Positions 16,699 through 26,925 of a stretch of DNA of 33,885 nt are shown here, piece after piece. Made by a program: the position numbers and the translations under genes. Location: the NCBI GenBank assembly GCA_017935905.1, contig JAGBGO010000073.1, positions 1 to 33,885 on the forward strand, given 5' to 3'. The number at the start of each line of letters is the position of its first letter. Within the stretch, counting starts at the first letter, position 1. Source of the DNA: Clostridia bacterium (GTDB lineage: Bacteria; Bacillota; Clostridia; UBA1212; UBA1255). The notes under the pieces are model-generated. The model saw only the letters and a list, made by a program, of their open reading frames with translations, was not told where the DNA came from and made no database searches.

Positions 16699-17181
16699 TT
16701 AAATTCCATACAAAAGACAAGCTTCTTCTAATTTAGCAAAATCGTTGCACCGTCTGGTAAGTGCAGTTGTGTTGCCGTCACGGAGTTTAAGGTTGTATAG
16801 TATAGCTGCATTCTTTGTGATTTTCTTTTGAATAGATTTAATATAATAATATTCTGCCCATAGTAACGCTTTATAATGAACATCTTGTTCACTTTGAATA
16901 TCTACGTAACGATACGCAGACGGTGGAACAGGAAACATATTATTTAAGTTAATAACGGAATACTCCTTTATTTTGATAAAGTCAATGTTTTCTTTCATCT
17001 TACGATGTTTCTCTTTGTATGAAGATAACGGCGCAAAATAGTCAAGACCGTGAATATGTAACACAATCCCTATGTATTTACGTGTATGTATTTGTTCCGG
17101 CTGTTTATTATGAAAGAGCCGCGGTTCGTAATAAGACAAATACTGAATATATCGAGGATCCACCTCGTACAATCGAATCAT
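16699..17181 (-). CDS. Type III toxin, ToxN/AbiQ/CptN-family endoribonuclease
   Basis: A 160-residue protein matching the ToxN/AbiQ/CptN endoribonucleases, which cut RNA unless bound by their own antitoxin RNA and can abort phage infection. The family core is clear: KYIGIVLHIHGLDYFAPLSSYKEKH (about residues 36-60), with the PLSS-x-K region that holds the catalytic serine and lysine in ToxN, then IDFIKI and the NLNNMFPVP loop (about 79-87). The length fits CptN/AbiQ (about 155-172). The ATG at 17179-17181 follows GGGGGAGGG. Upstream on the same strand lie a hairpin terminator and a two-repeat RNA with its promoter, the canonical type III layout. No terminator is obvious before the pta promoter. 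Subfamily placement is tentative. Confidence 0.88.
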   Translation of the reverse strand: MIRLYEVDPRYIQYLSYYEPRLFHNKQPEQIHTRKYIGIVLHIHGLDYFAPLSSYKEKHRKMKENIDFIKIKEYSVINLNNMFPVPPSAYRYVDIQSEQDVHYKALLWAEYYYIKSIQKKITKNAAILYNLKLRDGNTTALTRRCNDFAKLEEACLLYGI

Positions 17182-17240: not shown

Positions 17241-17313
17241 AACAATCTTTCGCACTTGGCGTGGCGAAACACGCACGTAATAAATCTCTCACTTAAGGCT
17301 GAGAAACGCCTGT
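17201..17313 (-). ncRNA. Type III antitoxin RNA, copy 1 (with toxin)
   Basis: The predicted RNA starts near 17313 and ends after the 17210-17239 hairpin. It contains two diverged tandem repeats of about 36-37 bases: 17283-17318 (its first bases overlap the promoter) and 17244-17280. They align along a GYGUUUC...GCC..AAGUGMGA.AGAUU pattern. A short tandem repeat between promoter and terminator, followed by a ToxN-family gene, is the defining type III antitoxin arrangement; CptI-type antitoxins are known with about two repeats. GGCGU at the 5' end can pair with ACGCC further on, as expected for a pseudoknotted RNA, but the fold is inference. Confidence 0.78.
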
Positions 17314-17319
17314 AGTTAT

Positions 17320-17347
17320 ATTATCCACGAATCCAAAAATTTGTCAA
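17320..17347 (-). promoter_or_regulatory. Antitoxin promoter, copy 1
   Basis: TTGACA (17342-17347) and GATAAT (17320-17325) with a 16-base spacer on the minus strand. The same promoter precedes copy 2. Confidence 0.87.
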
Positions 17348-17475: not shown

Positions 17476-17577
17476 AGAGGTCTCCCACCATCCGGCAGAA
17501 GACCTCTATTCTTTCGCACTTGGCGTGGCGAAACACGCACGTAATAACTTTCTCACTCAAGGCTGAGATACGCCTGT
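17476..17577 (-). ncRNA. Orphan type III antitoxin-like RNA, copy 2
   Basis: About 80 bases are nearly identical to copy 1: the same two tandem repeats, differing at a handful of positions. The RNA ends in its own hairpin, an 8-bp AGAGGTCT/AGACCTCT stem (17476-17483, 17500-17507). No toxin gene follows; the next minus-strand element is the copy 1 promoter. A full promoter at 17584-17611 suggests that it is expressed. Confidence 0.72.
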
Positions 17578-17583
17578 AGTTAT

Positions 17584-17611
17584 ATTATCCATAAACCATA
17601 AAAATTGTCAA
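17584..17611 (-). promoter_or_regulatory. Promoter of antitoxin RNA copy 2
   Basis: TTGACA (17606-17611) and GATAAT (17584-17589), 16-base spacer. The -35 box begins five bases past the stop codon of the upstream DUF262 gene. Confidence 0.85.
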
Positions 17612-17615
17612 CACT

Positions 17616-19700
17616 TTAATTGCGCACGAGCATAGAACTTCTTGTTTTATCTATATCTTTAACAAATGCCTCAATACAATCTTCACTCAAATTCACAGCA
17701 TAAGTTTCTCCGTTCCATTTCCATTCAAAACCGTTTGATGTTTTAGCAAACTCCAATTGATTATTTTTGACAAAATCATAGTACGAAATTTCACCCGAGC
17801 GTTTTAATTGATACACAGCATTCAAGAAAGGATTACGAATTTTATTTTTTGTCGCGCGCTCATTTTCAATAAAAACAGCACTAAACAAATCATTTTCGTC
17901 CGAAACTTTAAATTGTCCATAGGAACCACTTTGAAAGGACTCATATTTAATGAAATAATATTCCCATTGATCAGCCGAATATGAAACGTCCGATTGATCT
18001 TCAAGTTTGTTTTTTCGTAAATATTCAAGGAACCGGACATAATCATCAGAATTGTTCCAGCCTCGTAAAGAGAACAGCGATTGCAACATTTTCTCAGTAC
18101 ACGGAAGAAAGACTCTATCTGAGTAGCCATTGATTCCGCACTTAAAATAGCCAAAACCGCACGAAAGTAGACGACGAAAACAAATCGCTTTATCTGTAAG
18201 AGCAAGCCACTTAAGATTGTCATTCAAATAATCATCTTGAATATCTTTGATATTGTCGGTTGCGCCTCGTACAAGAGGATTATTCAGCAGTTCGTATTTT
18301 TTACTGTTGTTAGAATAAAACGCTTTATATTGACTCCATTCTTTGTAATTTGGGTCATCACAAATAATACCCGCAAACGATTCAACAACGTCGCCCATTA
18401 ACTCTTCGTTTAAACTGAGTTTGTCTACACTTGTTGGCGTGTTATTTGATGCACGCCACATATACAACGCCCGCATCAATAAATAATAATCATACAACGA
18501 GCGACCATTAATCACTTGGCCACATGCAACATCATATTGATAACGTATATATGCCCAAAGATAGCATCGGCTTGCCTGTGTAAAATCTTTCTCGCCGCAG
18601 CAGCACAATTTAAAGAAATCAACATCGTCACTCGGTCGTCCTTCGAATATAACAATATGATTACTTTCTATGGGTTTATCATGATCATAACGTACCAATT
18701 CATCAAAACAATCCCCTTTTACAAAATTACTTGATACCAGGTCCATAGAAAACTTAATTAAATTTATATTCTCTTTCTTATCCAGGATTTGTCTTGTCAT
18801 TTCTGCTATAGCAGGCAAATGATCGCCTTTTTTGATTTGTTTAGCCATATCTGACGTTTCCCACCATATCATTTGAACGAGGAAAGCGAAATATCGATAA
18901 AGAAAAGGATCGTGATTGATTGCAGCATATGCTTCTGCGTCAAGATCTCCATTTTCTCCACCATATTGCTTTGCCAACGCCCAAAACGTAGGTAACCATT
19001 CACCATTAATAATAGCAGCAAGATCCGGCGCTGCTTTTAATAAATCGCCCTTAATCAGCTCAAAAGGAGTAAGTTGTTTCCCCCTGGAATTCATGGCAGC
19101 ATACAATTCATCCGTTCTTTGAAATCCATCTAAAGAAATAAAAGAAAAATACATATTGTTTACTTTTTCGTACATCGGTGTCTTCTCACACGGTAACGCG
19201 TTTGCTTTTTGATCTATAGCATCAAGCATATTAAGCATATTGACAATAGTAGGATCATTCAACCACCTTTTTTTAAACTTTGTGTGATTGGTTATAACCT
19301 CCGAAGGTACACCAGCATCATCCAAAAGATGTGCGCCTTCCTCTTTTAAAAAAGCGCAAAAATCTCGAGATGAATCTCTTGTTGCATACTCCAACCGTTC
19401 TAAAAAATCAACCTTAACATTTGCTTTCTTTGCGAAATACCATTTCAAAAGGAATAACGTCGTGACTCTTTGTTGCCCATCAATAAGCACAATTCTGCCT
19501 TTGTCTGTAGGAACACCATAAATATAATTAAAGACGTGCTGTTCTTTCTCGCCGGTTAACACTTCAAAAACATCATCCAATAATTTATTTCTAACAGCCT
19601 CTGCATTCGCCCTTCCCTGGGCATAATCTCTTTGTATTTCTGGAATCCATACTATGTAATCTTCGAGAAGTTGTGAAATATTCAACAATCCATTTCCCAT
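17616..19700 (-). CDS. DUF262 (GmrSD N-terminal domain) protein
   Basis: A 694-residue DUF262 protein. The N-terminal ParB-like/NTPase motifs are IPEIQRDYAQGR (about 19-30) and VLIDGQQRVTTLFLL (about 71-85). DUF262 is the nucleotide-dependent part of GmrSD-type restriction enzymes and of several phage-defence proteins. I see no HNH/DUF1524 motif in its C-terminal half, so it may act as the non-nuclease partner of the adjacent DUF262-DUF1524 protein. I choose ATG 19698-19700, just after the partner's TAG and ten bases after AAGGAG; upstream codons belong to the partner. Lower GC than the flanking core genes suggests horizontal acquisition. The target is unknown. Confidence 0.85.
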   Translation of the reverse strand: MGNGLLNISQLLEDYIVWIPEIQRDYAQGRANAEAVRNKLLDDVFEVLTGEKEQHVFNYIYGVPTDKGRIVLIDGQQRVTTLFLLKWYFAKKANVKVDFLERLEYATRDSSRDFCAFLKEEGAHLLDDAGVPSEVITNHTKFKKRWLNDPTIVNMLNMLDAIDQKANALPCEKTPMYEKVNNMYFSFISLDGFQRTDELYAAMNSRGKQLTPFELIKGDLLKAAPDLAAIINGEWLPTFWALAKQYGGENGDLDAEAYAAINHDPFLYRYFAFLVQMIWWETSDMAKQIKKGDHLPAIAEMTRQILDKKENINLIKFSMDLVSSNFVKGDCFDELVRYDHDKPIESNHIVIFEGRPSDDVDFFKLCCCGEKDFTQASRCYLWAYIRYQYDVACGQVINGRSLYDYYLLMRALYMWRASNNTPTSVDKLSLNEELMGDVVESFAGIICDDPNYKEWSQYKAFYSNNSKKYELLNNPLVRGATDNIKDIQDDYLNDNLKWLALTDKAICFRRLLSCGFGYFKCGINGYSDRVFLPCTEKMLQSLFSLRGWNNSDDYVRFLEYLRKNKLEDQSDVSYSADQWEYYFIKYESFQSGSYGQFKVSDENDLFSAVFIENERATKNKIRNPFLNAVYQLKRSGEISYYDFVKNNQLEFAKTSNGFEWKWNGETYAVNLSEDCIEAFVKDIDKTRSSMLVRN

Positions 19701-19705
19701 TATGA

Positions 19706-21766
19706 CTATACTCCTTCCATATCTTTCAAGCACGCAACAATAGCACGTTGGTAAGCATCCGCATCTTTAACAGTCCAATAACGCCAATTATGATCTATTT
19801 CAGATGAATTTTGAGCATCCGGTAAATATTTTATATTGTAATATAACATAAACGCATTAACCGTTGCACACGGCACAAACGCACCATTTCCAATTTCCTG
19901 AATCAACCGTTCCCTTTTTTTGTACAACGTATCATTTTGGAGAGACGTGTTCAAATCTTTTTTTAACAGGGCAAGGTTCTTGATATAATGAATATCGTCC
20001 TCAAGCAGGCAATTATCAGCAAGTTTTTCAACATACTGCTCATATTGTTTTTTCTCCTTTTCATCCGCTTCGTCTGGATGCTGAGGAAATATGTGTTCCA
20101 GCGACCAAGAGCCACTTAATGCCTCCGAAAAAGGAAATCTTCTGCAAATATATTTTTTATATTTTGATTGTTTTTTATTATCAGCGGATTCAATCGTTTC
20201 ATAAACATTAAATAACCACAGAATCGCTTCTATTCGTTTCTTTTCATCACTATAAGTTAGGAAATCATTATTATATTTATCCGAATCCTCAATCAGCAAA
20301 TATATATGTTCCGGCTGTGGTTTATTTTTCAAGTCATCTTTCAGGCATAACAGAACATAGTTTTTCAATTTTTGAACAAAATCTTTTTTGGAAGGTACTT
20401 TTTCCGCCTCCAGTAATAAATCGGATAACATTTGCTGTTGCGATTTATAATTGCGATTGTATCTAAAACCAAGCTTTTGATATAACGTAAGCAAACCAAT
20501 ATAATGGTAAATTTCCACATCATCATACCATTCTTTTGTTCTATCGAAAATATCACGTATTCCCTTTAATATACGATCTGAAAAATCCGGAGTTTTCTTG
20601 CTATACGCATTATACCAATCAAACAACGCATATGGGTTGTTTGAAGATGTATCTTTACAAGTAGCATCATCACCTTTCTCTTTTCTTGCATAAACATCCA
20701 GTAAAAGATCAATTCTTGTATCCGTTTTGTATTCACCAGAAATAAAAGCCCATAGCTCATTTTCACCAAGACCACGTTCTATTTCTTCCCATTGATAGCT
20801 TTTTTGTTGTATATTTTGATTATCGCTTCGAAGTACAAGAGATTTAATTAACTCAGCATTTGTCAACGGAATTGCGCCCGAATTAATTTTCATAAACACG
20901 TCCACACTCGAAAGTTCATTAGACTCCGGCACAACATACCATAAGAAATAAACATTCCTTTTGATGCAGTTTAAAAGGCAGTTAATTTGATCAATCTCTT
21001 TCCCATCACAAACAAAGTCAAGTATTTCTTCGATTGCAGTCCGTATATAGTAAGAGTCAATCACATACGAACCACCAAAATTATCTTCATTAACAAACTT
21101 ATCCTTTACATCTGCAGCAAACTGTTCAAACCACTGTTTCTTACTTTCTTCCGTAAGTTCCGAAGTCAGCAATATGTCTCGAGTCGGAATTTCTCCACCA
21201 GAAACAGATTTTATATAATTATATATTCGGTTCGATAAAGAAAGCTCAATTTCTTCCCGTCGATATGTAATGTCATACGGATATGTCACAGGACCACAAA
21301 AAGAAGACAAAACTGTGTAAATTAAAAAAATACAGGTTAACCGCTGTTGTCCATCAATTACCTCCCAAGACTTTGAACCTAAATCTTTCACGGTAAGCGT
21401 TTGTAAACAATAAAAATCAAATTTATCATCAAAAGATTTCGAGGAATTAAGACTTGTTTTTGAGAAAAAGTCTTTGCCTTTACTTTCAGAATATGCAAAT
21501 AAATCTTCCAAAAGTTTCCTTACATTATCTTTTGCATCCCAGCGAAATCCTCTTTGATACGGTTCAATAATAAAATTCAATTTAGAACCTTCATTTTCTA
21601 AATCTTGCAGCAGAAATTTTCGTTCGTCTTCAGAAATATTTTGACCCGCATTGGCGAGTCCAATCGCGTTAAAACCACGGACAAGTTTCTGCTCACAGGA
21701 ATTTGATTCGCAAAATCTTCTGGCAGGATCAATACTTCTAAATTCCAACGTATAGTTTAAATTCAT
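19706..21766 (-). CDS. DUF262-DUF1524 (GmrSD-like, HNH nuclease) protein
   Basis: A 686-residue protein with both GmrSD halves. The DUF262 motifs are IIEPYQRGFRW (about 66-76) and VIDGQQRLTCIFLI (about 136-149). The C-terminal DUF1524 has the HNH-like SLEHIFPQH (about 555-563) followed by IKNLALLKKDLNTSLQN. GmrSD enzymes cut DNA carrying modified cytosines, and other DUF262/DUF1524 proteins act in phosphorothioate-linked defence; which chemistry applies here cannot be read from sequence. The start is ATG 21764-21766, six bases after GGAGGT. It is the first gene of a two-gene unit with the second DUF262 protein five bases downstream. The composition is AT-rich. Confidence 0.88.
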   Translation of the reverse strand: MNLNYTLEFRSIDPARRFCESNSCEQKLVRGFNAIGLANAGQNISEDERKFLLQDLENEGSKLNFIIEPYQRGFRWDAKDNVRKLLEDLFAYSESKGKDFFSKTSLNSSKSFDDKFDFYCLQTLTVKDLGSKSWEVIDGQQRLTCIFLIYTVLSSFCGPVTYPYDITYRREEIELSLSNRIYNYIKSVSGGEIPTRDILLTSELTEESKKQWFEQFAADVKDKFVNEDNFGGSYVIDSYYIRTAIEEILDFVCDGKEIDQINCLLNCIKRNVYFLWYVVPESNELSSVDVFMKINSGAIPLTNAELIKSLVLRSDNQNIQQKSYQWEEIERGLGENELWAFISGEYKTDTRIDLLLDVYARKEKGDDATCKDTSSNNPYALFDWYNAYSKKTPDFSDRILKGIRDIFDRTKEWYDDVEIYHYIGLLTLYQKLGFRYNRNYKSQQQMLSDLLLEAEKVPSKKDFVQKLKNYVLLCLKDDLKNKPQPEHIYLLIEDSDKYNNDFLTYSDEKKRIEAILWLFNVYETIESADNKKQSKYKKYICRRFPFSEALSGSWSLEHIFPQHPDEADEKEKKQYEQYVEKLADNCLLEDDIHYIKNLALLKKDLNTSLQNDTLYKKRERLIQEIGNGAFVPCATVNAFMLYYNIKYLPDAQNSSEIDHNWRYWTVKDADAYQRAIVACLKDMEGV

Positions 21767-21916
21767 TTCATACCTCCATAATAAACACCCGTGTATACGC
21801 AATGTTCTATTCGTATCTCATCCAATAAAATTACGTACCAACGTAAACAATTAAATGCGTATTAATTCTCCATATTTTGTTTTTTGTCATACAATTCACC
21901 TAGCTAATTTTCTTCG

Positions 21917-21970: not shown

Positions 21971-24187
21971 TTAAGATTCAAGATTGATCCATAAAGCAGG
22001 ACGCACGGCTATACTACCACCGCTGTAGCTGACACTGATGCCATTGTCGTCGACCCCCCCATCGGGAACGACCTTTGCAGCGGAAGTACTAGCGGCACCG
22101 GGCGACCGGAGCCACCAAACTGAATTGCCGCTATTCACATTCACAGATGCACCTTGTGCTTGCGCATATGCCGTAGCCGTACATCCTCTTGCACTATTGG
22201 TAGAAAAATATTTTTCTGCTTCACGGATGGATAACAAGAAAACTTTATCCGTTGTATTATTACCACCGTCTATGCGATAGAACGAATTATCCGGATTTGT
22301 TAACTTAGTGGATGCAATCATAGATTGCTGATTAACATTAAATGCAGTGGTATAGAAAGTGGAATTTAACCAAGAACGCAATGTGCAAGTTTCCCAAGTT
22401 ACAGACGTGTAACTTGTATTATACAGCTGACAATCTAATGCGTATTTACTAATTAACAACGCTTTCCCATCCTTCTTATCTAATACAATCCATTCAATCT
22501 TCTCTTTACCATTCGTAAAGTTATTATCTTGCTCATATGTACCAAACAAAACAGATTCGCCTACTTGCATATTTGCATTTATATCATTCCATACGGTCGG
22601 TGTAGGTTCCGGTGTTCTGGTTGGTTCCGGTGTTCTGGTTGGTGCCGGTGTTCTGGTTGGTACCGGTGTTCTGGTTGGTACCGGTGTTCTGGTTGGTGCC
22701 GGTGTTTTGGTTGGTACCGGTGTTTTGGTTGGTACCGGTGTTCTGGTTGGTGCCGGTGTGCTGGTTGGTACCCACGTTTTCATAGCAGGCGTTGGTGAGG
22801 CATAAAGAGGGGGATTTGTCGATTTTATAACAACAGAGGCTGTTGGAGCTGATACCAAAACTTCTTCCGAATTATTTCCAGAAATAAAAGGTATAATCAT
22901 ACACGCGCATACACATAAGCTAACGAAGCCAACAACTAAGAAAACTGTAAGTATTGCTTTTTTTCTACTATTTTCTTCAGTGATACTAGCATATTCTACT
23001 AATGTCTGGCGCAAAGAATCATCTGCACATTGAAATGCATTCTGGTAATTACTCTTCTTCTCTAAAGACTGTGTACACTTAGCCAAGTCCTCAAAATTAT
23101 GTACGTGAAGTTCAGCCATCAATTTTCCAATATAGGCATCCGCACAGTCCGGATTAATATCTAGAACTTTCTCACAATATTCATCTGCATTAGCCCAATC
23201 TCCAACTTTCAAAAAACGTATAGTACGTTTCAATAATAATTCTGTAGAATCATTCCTTTCCACCATAGGGTTCACTACTGTTTTTTCGGCACTTTCCCGC
23301 TGAAGTATTTTCTTAATCCCCCGTATCAAATCCTGCATAAATCCAAGTTTGCTCATATCCTGGGCTTGTAAGTTGGCAAATTCCGGGGGTAAATAGTAGG
23401 GATCCATATCTTTGTACGCAGGGATCAACGTCTTCTTACCGTCTTTTGTTAATGCTAAGAAACGGCTCCATTCGTTCTTGACCCATACCGCATTGAAGTA
23501 TTCCTGCTTTGTGCCCAGTACCACCATAACCTTGGCAGAGTTTAAGGCGGCAAATATGTAAGGTTCATAGGCAGAACCTAACTTGTCTTCCAACGTAATA
23601 CGGGCGAAGAATACTTTAAACCCTTCTTGGGTGAGTTGGTGGTAGAGATCATTGGCGAGCACCGAGTCCGGTGTTCTGCGGCCGTTGTTGTCCGTTTCTT
23701 TGTAGCAGATAAACACGTCGAAAGGCTCTTCTTTTTGAGAAATCGCCAAGATGCCTTTTTGAATTTCATCAATAGCTTTGGCTTCTTCTTCGTAAACCGT
23801 TCTTTGGTAGCCGTCTGCGTGTTCTAAGGCTGCCTGGTAGTCTGCATCCGCATAAATAGACGTAAACTGGGCACGGTTTACCGTAGGCACCCGCTTACGG
23901 GTTGCAGGGTCTTCTACGTATTCAATGCCGTAGCGGCAAAGTACTAAAGACCAATAGGCTTCGGCGTCCTTTCCGTCTTCGCTTAGGATTTGTTCATAGA
24001 TCGCAGCAGCTTTATCAAATTCGTTGTTCCGGCGAAAATGGTTGGCGCGGTCATATAAATTTGCCCGTTTCTCGTCGCCCAAACGAGGCAAGGTTTGTTT
24101 AGTACCGCAATATTCACAGGTTGCGACCGTTTCGTTATTTTGAATTTCTAATGTGCCACCGCACATTTTACATTTGAAGATGGACAT
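21971..24187 (-). CDS. Membrane-anchored TIR protein with zinc ribbon and DUF6273 domain
   Basis: A 738-residue multidomain protein. In order: an N-terminal zinc ribbon (CKMC and CEYC, residues 6-27), a TPR-like helical segment (about 42-80), a TIR domain (about 155-295) starting FDVFICYKE, a second helical repeat region (about 315-400), one membrane helix (about 411-436) preceded by RKK, a Pro/Thr linker of repeated TRTPxP (about 475-530), and a C-terminal domain with WWLRSPG and VRPALWI that matches DUF6273. E239 in WVKNE aligns with the catalytic glutamate of NAD-cleaving TIRs. The charge pattern puts TIR inside and DUF6273 outside. AGGAGGAATCT precedes the ATG. It is last of four same-strand genes with the SPFH, membrane and cyclase-like genes. 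NADase activity is inferred. Confidence 0.85.
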   Translation of the reverse strand: MSIFKCKMCGGTLEIQNNETVATCEYCGTKQTLPRLGDEKRANLYDRANHFRRNNEFDKAAAIYEQILSEDGKDAEAYWSLVLCRYGIEYVEDPATRKRVPTVNRAQFTSIYADADYQAALEHADGYQRTVYEEEAKAIDEIQKGILAISQKEEPFDVFICYKETDNNGRRTPDSVLANDLYHQLTQEGFKVFFARITLEDKLGSAYEPYIFAALNSAKVMVVLGTKQEYFNAVWVKNEWSRFLALTKDGKKTLIPAYKDMDPYYLPPEFANLQAQDMSKLGFMQDLIRGIKKILQRESAEKTVVNPMVERNDSTELLLKRTIRFLKVGDWANADEYCEKVLDINPDCADAYIGKLMAELHVHNFEDLAKCTQSLEKKSNYQNAFQCADDSLRQTLVEYASITEENSRKKAILTVFLVVGFVSLCVCACMIIPFISGNNSEEVLVSAPTASVVIKSTNPPLYASPTPAMKTWVPTSTPAPTRTPVPTKTPVPTKTPAPTRTPVPTRTPVPTRTPAPTRTPEPTRTPEPTPTVWNDINANMQVGESVLFGTYEQDNNFTNGKEKIEWIVLDKKDGKALLISKYALDCQLYNTSYTSVTWETCTLRSWLNSTFYTTAFNVNQQSMIASTKLTNPDNSFYRIDGGNNTTDKVFLLSIREAEKYFSTNSARGCTATAYAQAQGASVNVNSGNSVWWLRSPGAASTSAAKVVPDGGVDDNGISVSYSGGSIAVRPALWINLES
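22604..22772. repeat. 18-bp minisatellite inside the TIR gene
   Basis: About nine tandem copies of an 18-base unit (plus strand GGTGCCGGTGTTCTGGTT and variants) encode the TRTPxP linker. Being a multiple of three, loss or gain of units changes linker length without a frameshift. Confidence 0.93.
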
Positions 24188-24233
24188 AGATTCCTCCTAT
24201 AAAAAAAACTTCTATTTTACATTGAGCATTTCA

Positions 24234-24976: not shown

Positions 24977-25681
24977 TTATCTTTCCGCTTTCAAGATTTT
25001 ACAGTTTTCACTGCGGTCCGTAATATACCCTTTGATTTCGTTTGCAAGAGCGCCGGCAGCTTCCTCTTTTTCTTGAGAGACCGCTTCTGCGAAGGCATCA
25101 AAGCTGCGGCTAATTTGGTTTTCAATAAAATTCAAAGACGGATGACCCATAGGATCCGTGTAGCGAACAGCTTCGTATACGTCTTTACACATTTTACGAA
25201 GATTGGGGTTCGTCGTTTTTGTGTAAAGGCATTGGGCATCCGCAGTAAGGGCACGAATAAAGGCTGTATCCGTTGCAATTTTATCGTCAATATCTTCTAC
25301 AATATCTGCAGCTGCAGACGCTTTCAAAAGAGAAATGCCATTAAAGCCCAGAATGAGCAAGCAAATAACGGCACCAATCCAAGCAGGAAGGCCTGGAACT
25401 GCCATAAATACGCTGCCTACAAGAAGCGTAAGCACTAAGCCCACTTTAGCAATGCGCATTAAAGGAATCCGGTAAAATAATTTCTGTGCATTTTCAGAGT
25501 TAAATACGCGGTGCGCAATCAGGATTAAACCAAAGAACGCAATCAGGATGAACACGTATCCCACAAAAAAGCCCGCGTCCAACGTCGGACGCAGATTTCC
25601 GCCTACAAGGAATGTTATTAAATGAAATAACAGAACGCTAATAAACCAACCAATTGTATAATATCCAAATGTATTCTTCAT
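24977..25681 (-). CDS. Four-helix membrane protein with cytoplasmic tail
   Basis: A 234-residue protein with four hydrophobic segments at about 5-27, 35-57, 76-95 and 98-118, then a soluble, mostly helical C-terminal half rich in Asp, Glu and Lys. I do not recognise a named family. The start ATG at 25679-25681 follows ATGGAGGCG; the longer frame reads into the SPFH gene. It starts 14 bases after the SPFH gene, so the two are probably co-transcribed and may cooperate at the membrane. The topology (four helices plus soluble domain) resembles membrane effectors of nucleotide-signalling defence systems, but no ligand-binding domain is recognised, so this is only suggestive. Confidence 0.7.
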   Translation of the reverse strand: MKNTFGYYTIGWFISVLLFHLITFLVGGNLRPTLDAGFFVGYVFILIAFFGLILIAHRVFNSENAQKLFYRIPLMRIAKVGLVLTLLVGSVFMAVPGLPAWIGAVICLLILGFNGISLLKASAAADIVEDIDDKIATDTAFIRALTADAQCLYTKTTNPNLRKMCKDVYEAVRYTDPMGHPSLNFIENQISRSFDAFAEAVSQEKEEAAGALANEIKGYITDRSENCKILKAER

Positions 25682-25695
25682 CGTATACGCCTCCA

Positions 25696-26880
25696 TCACA
25701 ATTTTTGTCCGCATTCTAAGCAGAATTTCCCTTTTGCAACCGTTTTACCGCAGCCGGGACAAATTATCGTTTCTTCAGCAGGTGCTCCGGCAATCGGGTT
25801 TCCGCAGGAGAAACAGAATTTAGCGCTTGCCGGCAGAATTGCGCCACAACTGCAAGTAACCGTATTGTTCTGCGTAAAGTTGGCGCCTCCGGGCATAGCT
25901 TGATTCATGGCATTTCCTACTGCGCCGCCTACCATACCGCCTACCGCGCCGCCTACGCCGACCATGGTGCCAAGGCCTACACCCATATTGGTAAATTGGC
26001 CAACGGCTTCATTTCTGGCTACGTCGTGAGCTACATCAAATCCCCGCTCTTGCTGATACGTGTAGCCTTCCTGTGCCCGTTTGGTAGCCATAGCTTGGGA
26101 CTCGATAATGGTCTTTTGTGCTTCGGTTTGGGCGTAAATCAAATCCGTTTGCTGACGAAGTTTAGCTTCCGCAATGTCTGCGTACTGGCGGAAATGAAGT
26201 TCTTTGAATTTCTCGAATTGGCGTTCGCCGTCCGGTTTGACTACGTTTGCAACAAAGAAACGCTCCAGTGCAATACCGTAGTCTGCAAAGTCCGGTGCCA
26301 ATTGTGCAAGCAATGCATCCGAGAATGCGGTTAAATGCTCGTCAATTTCAAAAATGCTTACGGCATTGTTCTTCATATATTGAGCAATATAGGTCTTCAC
26401 ACGGGTCATCAAGATAGAGCGGAAGAAACCCACTAATTTTTGCTGACTGAGATAATTCTCTGTGCCAACTAATTTAAGGAGCAATTTCCGGCTGTCTTCT
26501 GCCCGCAGGCTCATCTCACCGGAGGCGCCGATGGAGATGGGAAAGCCGTAGGTGGGCTCTATGTACTGCACTTTGCTGTCTGTGCCCCATTTGATTGCCA
26601 TCTGCTCGGTCTTGTTGATAAAGTATACTTCGCAGTGGAAAGGTGTATCGCCGCCCGTAGTGCGGTTTAAGATCTTTCCAATTTTCGGAATATTCTGTGT
26701 TTCCAAGGTATAGCGCCCGGGACCAAACAAGTCCAGCGCCTGCCCGTTCATAAAGAAAATAGCTTCTTGACTTTCGTGTACAATTAACTGGGTAAGACTG
26801 TTAAAGTCTTCCGATGGATGTTTCCAAATAAAGGTACTGTTGTCCCCTTCATACATAAGAATTTCTGCGATTTTTGCCAT
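25696..26880 (-). CDS. SPFH-domain protein with C-terminal double zinc ribbon
   Basis: A 394-residue protein of the YdjI-like SPFH group. The SPFH (prohibitin/flotillin-like) domain spans about residues 30-240 (with RYTLETQNIPKIGKI and LVGFFRSILMTRVKTYIAQY). A helical stretch follows, rich in Gln, Ala and Glu (AEAKLRQQTDLIYAQTEAQK), then a Gly-rich hydrophobic region (GVGGAVGGMVGGAVGNA, about 300-320) and two zinc ribbons (CSCG..CFSCG and CPGCG..CLECG). Such proteins scaffold membrane microdomains. The start ATG is 26878-26880 after GGAGTTGATCTT; the longer frame begins upstream of this site. It is first in the run to the membrane, cyclase-like and TIR genes. Confidence 0.85.
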   Translation of the reverse strand: MAKIAEILMYEGDNSTFIWKHPSEDFNSLTQLIVHESQEAIFFMNGQALDLFGPGRYTLETQNIPKIGKILNRTTGGDTPFHCEVYFINKTEQMAIKWGTDSKVQYIEPTYGFPISIGASGEMSLRAEDSRKLLLKLVGTENYLSQQKLVGFFRSILMTRVKTYIAQYMKNNAVSIFEIDEHLTAFSDALLAQLAPDFADYGIALERFFVANVVKPDGERQFEKFKELHFRQYADIAEAKLRQQTDLIYAQTEAQKTIIESQAMATKRAQEGYTYQQERGFDVAHDVARNEAVGQFTNMGVGLGTMVGVGGAVGGMVGGAVGNAMNQAMPGGANFTQNNTVTCSCGAILPASAKFCFSCGNPIAGAPAEETIICPGCGKTVAKGKFCLECGQKL

Positions 26881-26925
26881 AAGATCAACTCCGTTGTCCA
26901 TTGATTATGAATGATTCATTAAGTA

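Follow-up and report, generated by a model that had tools for sequence, protein, structure and literature searches.

A predicted membrane-spanning TIR protein family with swapped C-terminal domains, encoded beside an SPFH gene in Clostridia

Introduction

In bacteria, TIR immunity is best known in the form of cytosolic sensors. In Toll and Toll-like receptors a single membrane helix is located between the ectodomain and a cytosolic TIR domain, and the Thoeris system contains a TIR protein as well. DGR-diversified C-type-lectin sensors combine a lectin-type binding domain with effectors such as TIR and concentrate their variation in the binding face (PMC10907252; PMC7159879). Among phage proteins, tentaclins and other DUF6273 receptor-binding proteins show a variable C-terminal part (PMC10743442, PMC11792537). 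Published models placed DUF6273 in the C-type lectin fold via DALI (PMC10743442), and the variable repeats of DGRs map to the C-terminal end of DUF6273 in phage proteins (PMC11792537). In B. subtilis, the SPFH protein YdjI of the pspA-ydjGHI operon needs the membrane proteins YdjG and YdjH to act (PMC8581546).

Here we describe a TIR gene found in a stretch of 33,885 nt from a Clostridia bacterium (GCA_017935905.1, contig JAGBGO010000073.1), which is called the window in the following. Its product shares with Toll receptors the predicted single helix between ectodomain and cytosolic TIR domain, and some of its bacterial relatives carry LRR ectodomains. However, the bacterial TIR domain is N-terminal (residues 158-280) and the ectodomain C-terminal (573-735), and the bacterial side has a zinc ribbon, TPRs, a swapped C-terminal domain and an SPFH operon, with no known adaptor. 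The resemblance to animal Toll receptors, proposed earlier in a sequence-only reading, is apt as a description of the way of working and becomes closer through the TIR-TM-LRR relatives, but by its domain order the protein is not a member of the class. Lectin-type binding domain, TIR effector and concentrated variation recall the DGR-diversified sensors, whereas STAND NTPase, MoxR and vWA parts are missing here and no reverse transcriptase was found in the own genome. With the phage proteins it shares DUF6273 and the variable C-terminal part; these are structural proteins of phages, whereas here DUF6273 is joined to a bacterial TIR domain. The operon and B. subtilis pspA-ydjGHI both combine a Band_7_1 SPFH gene with genes for membrane partners, but the Clostridia operon has no PspA and adds the TIR protein. 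The chances are, in our judgement, about even that these genes represent a membrane-spanning TIR receptor family in an accessory, probably immune operon together with SPFH and a small membrane protein.

Results and Discussion

The TIR gene is intact and encodes 738 aa from an ATG preceded by a good ribosome site (Table 1). The Pfam TPR_14 match spans residues 43-79, weak TPR matches were obtained at residues 326-348, and DUF6273 (PF19789) was matched at residues 573-735 with 109.2 bits at a cut-off of 23.5. E239 is located within WVKNEW, in a TIR fold with the glutamate at a WxxxE-type position. The AlphaFold2 model of residues 1-409 (pLDDT 85.5) shows a TIR fold flanked on either side by helical repeats, as had been expected from the sequence, and matches TPR and TIR structures. 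For the C-terminal domain, whose structure prediction had been suggested, the AlphaFold2 model reached a pLDDT of 97.3, and the sole match of the DUF6273 model in a Foldseek comparison with solved structures was the IgA protease 9qa6, itself a DUF6273-bearing protein. The stalk consists of 65% P+T, and its DNA (22605-22772) repeats an 18-bp unit 9.3 times in frame, so that the stalk length is changeable without frameshift. Matches of the protein to the PADLOC nuclease and PD-T4-6 models and to NCBIfam GltJ fall on the helix or the stalk and were rejected as composition artefacts. Every part named in the sequence-only reading, including one membrane helix, the cysteine pairs C6/C9 and C24/C27 and the position of E239, was recovered by Pfam, sequence and AlphaFold2 analysis. 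Because more than 100 homologs show these features again, chance is excluded and the gene anatomy is confirmed as real.

Table 1. Features of the TIR gene and the adjoining operon genes in the window
Feature	Positions	Strand	Remarks
Putative TIR receptor gene: zinc ribbon-TPR-TIR-TPR-TM-P/T stalk-DUF6273, 738 aa	21971..24187	-
Ribosome-binding site AGGAGG	24193..24198	-	5 nt upstream of ATG
N-terminal zinc ribbon, residues 1-35, C6/C9/C24/C27	24083..24187	-	cysteines 93/93; beta hairpins in model
N-side TPR, residues 43-84	23936..24061	-	Pfam TPR_14 E 1.1e-6; helices in model
TIR domain, residues 158-280	23348..23716	-	Pfam TIR_2 E 7.5e-13; fold matches TIR structures
E239 codon, putative catalytic glutamate	23471..23473	-	invariant 93/93; aligns with TLR glutamate
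C-side helical/TPR repeats, residues 313-408	22964..23251	-	all-helical in AF2; weak Pfam TPR
Single membrane helix, residues 414-436, RKK on inner side	22880..22948	-	predicted
Pro/Thr stalk, residues 453-540	22568..22831	-	18-bp tandem repeat
DUF6273 region, residues 541-738	21974..22567	-	Pfam E 2.6e-31; AF2 pLDDT 97.3
Most variable DUF6273 patch, residues 698-726	22010..22096	-	entropy 2.86 vs 1.55 elsewhere
Variable-slot gene between MEM and TIR, 245 aa	24234..24971	-	without family match
MEM245, small membrane protein, conserved partner	24977..25714	-	adjoins TIR in 52/75 loci
SPFH (Band_7_1), C-terminal double zinc ribbon, YdjI-like, conserved partner	25696..26901	-	Pfam E 1.2e-38

A scan of GTDB genomes yielded 210 relatives; 76 loci were kept, 117 homologs were read from all loci, and 93 of these are complete. 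In the Clostridia relatives (more than 100) the N-terminal half is near-constant, and none of the 93 aligned N-terminal halves deviates at E239 or at any of the four cysteines. A membrane helix after residue 380 is present in 77 of the 93 complete homologs and DUF6273 in 54. The C-terminal domains seen elsewhere include BspA LRR, RCC1 repeats, MORN, YARHG and Listeria-Bacteroides repeats. TIR-TM-LRR proteins were found at four loci (L103, L105, L122, L124); in these BspA-LRR proteins TIR, membrane helix and LRR follow each other on one chain as in a Toll receptor read backwards. The own genome encodes two paralogs which are 79% and 66% identical over the first 405 residues and then diverge, one of them continuing with a membrane helix, a Thr-rich stalk and an RHS/YD-like end, the other ending at a contig edge. 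At another locus (L110, 4342-5973), a TIR-less relative with zinc ribbon, TPR and RCC1-like repeats adjoins a TIR gene.

The split between both halves is also seen in their sequence identity. When 1485 pairs of DUF6273 members were compared in both domains, mean identity was 84% for TIR versus 47% for DUF6273, and DUF6273 was the less identical part in 99.9% of the pairs. The presence of DUF6273 requires 27 changes on the tree of N-terminal halves by parsimony, compared to a mean of 26.4 for shuffled labels; this lack of tree signal fits frequent swapping of the C-terminal domain, but some of it may stem from limited resolution in a tree of close relatives. The proposed joining of a conserved signalling half to a ligand-binding half is supported. 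Of the 20 most variable sites of DUF6273, 16 fall into residues 698-726, which make up 27 of the 195 sites (p 4e-13), and restriction to TIR proteins and well-filled columns still gives 14 of 20 (p 2e-10); both p values have to be read for an interval that was picked after the list of variable sites had been seen. Residues 698-726 coincide with the C-terminal DUF6273 end that is mutated by DGRs in phage proteins. In the 92%-complete own genome, neither a PF00078 (RVT_1) match for a reverse transcriptase nor a second copy of the C-terminal DNA as template repeat was detected, and DGR diversification of this gene is thereby ruled out for this genome.

The orientation in the membrane was deduced from charges and from related proteins. 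The single hydrophobic helix of the window protein, with its hydrophobic core at residues 414-432, is flanked by ENSRKKAIL on one side and GNNSEEV on the other, with RKK before it and no K or R in the 15 residues after it. In 79 relatives with one helix, the 15 residues before the helix contain 525 K+R versus 129 in the 15 residues after it, and in all but one (78/79) the excess is before the helix. Two further proteins of the own genome carry P/T stalks: in one (L008) a signal peptide precedes the stalk and a C-terminal anchor follows it, and the other (L007 622-2076, contig C16) consists of zinc ribbon, membrane helix, P/T stalk and LRR_5 without TIR. The latter has the same outer layout as the window protein and a different inner end. 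The charge bias, together with P/T stalks outside in the same genome, makes a predicted topology with the N-terminus inside and the C-terminus outside the best reading, in agreement with the earlier proposal.

Six relatives (at L055, L069, L071, L081 with two, and L118) have the TIR half fused to DUF6273 without a membrane-helix-like stretch, and two LRR relatives lack the helix as well. In the six, DUF6273 must be cytosolic, barring some other export route. Therefore DUF6273 also works inside cells; it serves for binding on both sides of the membrane and is no obligate ectodomain, so that the external DUF6273 of the sequence-only reading holds as a prediction for the window protein but is no rule for the family. 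The helix-free relatives, which mostly share the same operon context, would also agree with a family that is cytoplasmic throughout, in which the helix would anchor the protein or form a hairpin and an internal ligand would be sensed by the C-terminal domain. However, the strong one-sided charge bias at the helix and a P/T stalk of the kind used externally in the same genome render this very unlikely.

The genes are ordered SPFH, MEM, TIR on one strand. Of 75 loci, 54 have SPFH and 52 have MEM beside the TIR gene; many of the remaining loci end at a contig edge, although 13 show neither of the two in a complete upstream sequence. A second SPFH-MEM pair is located on contig C4 of the own genome. 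MEM245 was assigned to no Pfam family across 36 homologs. As the operon of SPFH, membrane protein and TIR is conserved, the earlier term of a one-chain sensor/effector is too simple.

The SPFH partner belongs to Band_7_1, the family of B. subtilis, where YdjI depends on its membrane proteins (PMC8581546), and the TIR protein starts with a zinc-ribbon motif, as does YdjG judging from a published primer. This would suit a role in envelope stress, with TIR as scaffold or stress signal in a YdjGHI-like surveillance complex and C-terminal domains that sense the state of wall or membrane. However, there is no PspA among the operon neighbours and the only match in the own genome is sub-threshold and located elsewhere. 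Patchy spread, ectodomain swapping and HEPN/nuclease-type slot genes also fit a conflict better than envelope stress, which we regard as possible but doubtful.

Tandem TIR genes, 2-4 copies and often with different C-terminal domains, occur in 20 loci. Some loci have a short gap between MEM and TIR, and about half carry a locus-specific gene there. Such slot genes include RiboL-PSP HEPN, pEK499_p136 HEPN (four matches, below the curated cut-off), DUF4365, DUF2971, TIR_2 and several without family; in the gaps surveyed from L053 to L128, possible SIR2-like genes were noted at L063 and L112. For the slot gene of the window, no match was obtained in Pfam, PADLOC, NCBIfam or PDB. Its motifs YIDLLGYKDIL and SDNFLF give it, as an impression only, the look of a class III cyclase. 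The TIR_2 slot gene at L084 encodes a ThsB-like protein and is, besides the TIR protein itself, a likeness to Thoeris. However, Pfam and PADLOC gave no ThsA match among seven neighbours (four upstream, three downstream), and the ThcB4 and ThsB models matched the TIR protein weakly, below cut-off (ThcB4 26.3 bits versus 220; ThsB E 0.028). Membership in Thoeris is ruled out by the missing ThsA and these scores.

As the family was mostly obtained from gut and rumen assemblies, recognition of contact or kin has to be considered, in which swapped and quickly diverging ectodomains would read neighbour cells or host glycans and TIR would relay a non-lethal signal. Other proteins use LRR_5 (BspA), RCC1 and DUF6273 for surface binding, and DUF6273 occurs in the secreted IgA protease (PMC12402451) that was found as fold match. 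However, the same domains stay intracellular in relatives without the helix, and the slot genes look like effectors; we consider this explanation unlikely.

At the genome level 16 of 291 Clostridia carry the module, at the genus level 14 of 181, and it is thus accessory. In the window, GC drops to 0.34-0.43 between 17 and 26 kb, versus 0.48 around, and next to this stretch lie a pair of GmrSD-like genes and one gene of AbiQ/ToxN type. Low GC and these neighbours favour a defence-type role, as circumstantial evidence. The adjacent GmrSD_N (DUF262) genes at 17616-19733 and 19706-21802, of which only the second has a GmrSD_C match, likely form a paired type IV restriction-like system adjoining the TIR operon. 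Upstream of the ToxN/AbiQ gene (16699-17181), two 102-nt copies at 17246-17347 and 17510-17611, 90% identical, 264 bp apart and each with a promoter-like TTGACA...ATAAT, are candidate type III antitoxin RNAs, though non-tandem and without Rfam match. GmrSD, AbiQ and the 245-aa slot gene were discarded as fixed parts of the system: none of them recurs in related loci. PADLOC defence models gave no full-length match to the window TIR protein. Phage and plasmid records gave no match of the TIR half, and carriage by phage or plasmid was accordingly dropped.

With regard to the chemistry, sequence comparison with solved structures gave one good match, a TLR15/TLR2 chimera (E 3e-5) that has Glu in the E239 column and is the nearest solved TIR. 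The TIR domains of TLRs act as scaffolds, and TLRs are not known as NADases. Therefore glutamate and fold do not settle the choice between enzyme and scaffold; NAD+ cleavage or nucleotide signalling is putative and somewhat on the probable side.

For an immune receptor we propose the following mechanism. The constant cytoplasmic half, composed of zinc ribbon, TPRs and TIR, would be held in a membrane complex by SPFH and the small membrane protein, as suggested by the conserved operon and by B. subtilis YdjI/YdjG/YdjH. The P/T stalk would take the C-type-lectin-type DUF6273 binding domain through the wall. Binding of an assumed ligand, clustering or envelope disturbance may then bring TIR domains together, and the assembled TIR would, under the assumed chemistry, consume NAD+ or produce a nucleotide signal; the gene in the variable slot may serve as second effector. 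The receptor reading is the best explanation for what was observed, namely the anatomy, the split into constant and variable halves, domain swapping, the operon and the patchy distribution. Counting against an immune role, the SPFH partner family is tied to envelope stress rather than immunity in B. subtilis (PMC8581546). The helix-free DUF6273 relatives, the lack of a full-length PADLOC match and the glutamate shared with TLRs also count against an immune Toll-like reading, as do GmrSD, AbiQ and a slot gene not common to other loci and the absence of the TIR half from phage and plasmid records.

Conclusions

No description joining TIR with DUF6273 was found in the literature, of which subscription journals were thinly covered, and no operon combining TIR with SPFH and a zinc ribbon, or TIR with SPFH and anti-phage activity, was described there. 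The new part is the family pattern of a constant TIR module, swapped diversifying tips and an SPFH operon. Tentatively, and with less confidence than in a membrane-spanning receptor family as such, these genes might be a germline Toll-like repertoire of Clostridia, in which a constant cytosolic TIR and one helix are combined with swapped diversifying tips (DUF6273, LRR or RCC1) in tandem arrays beside an SPFH/membrane-protein pair and an effector slot, for sensing phages or rivals at the envelope. A one-chain family of TIR, membrane helix and ectodomain, TIR-TM-LRR proteins included, would be a bacterial counterpart of Toll. It would make two questions testable, namely whether attackers are sensed at the surface before entry and which part SPFH scaffolds play in immunity.
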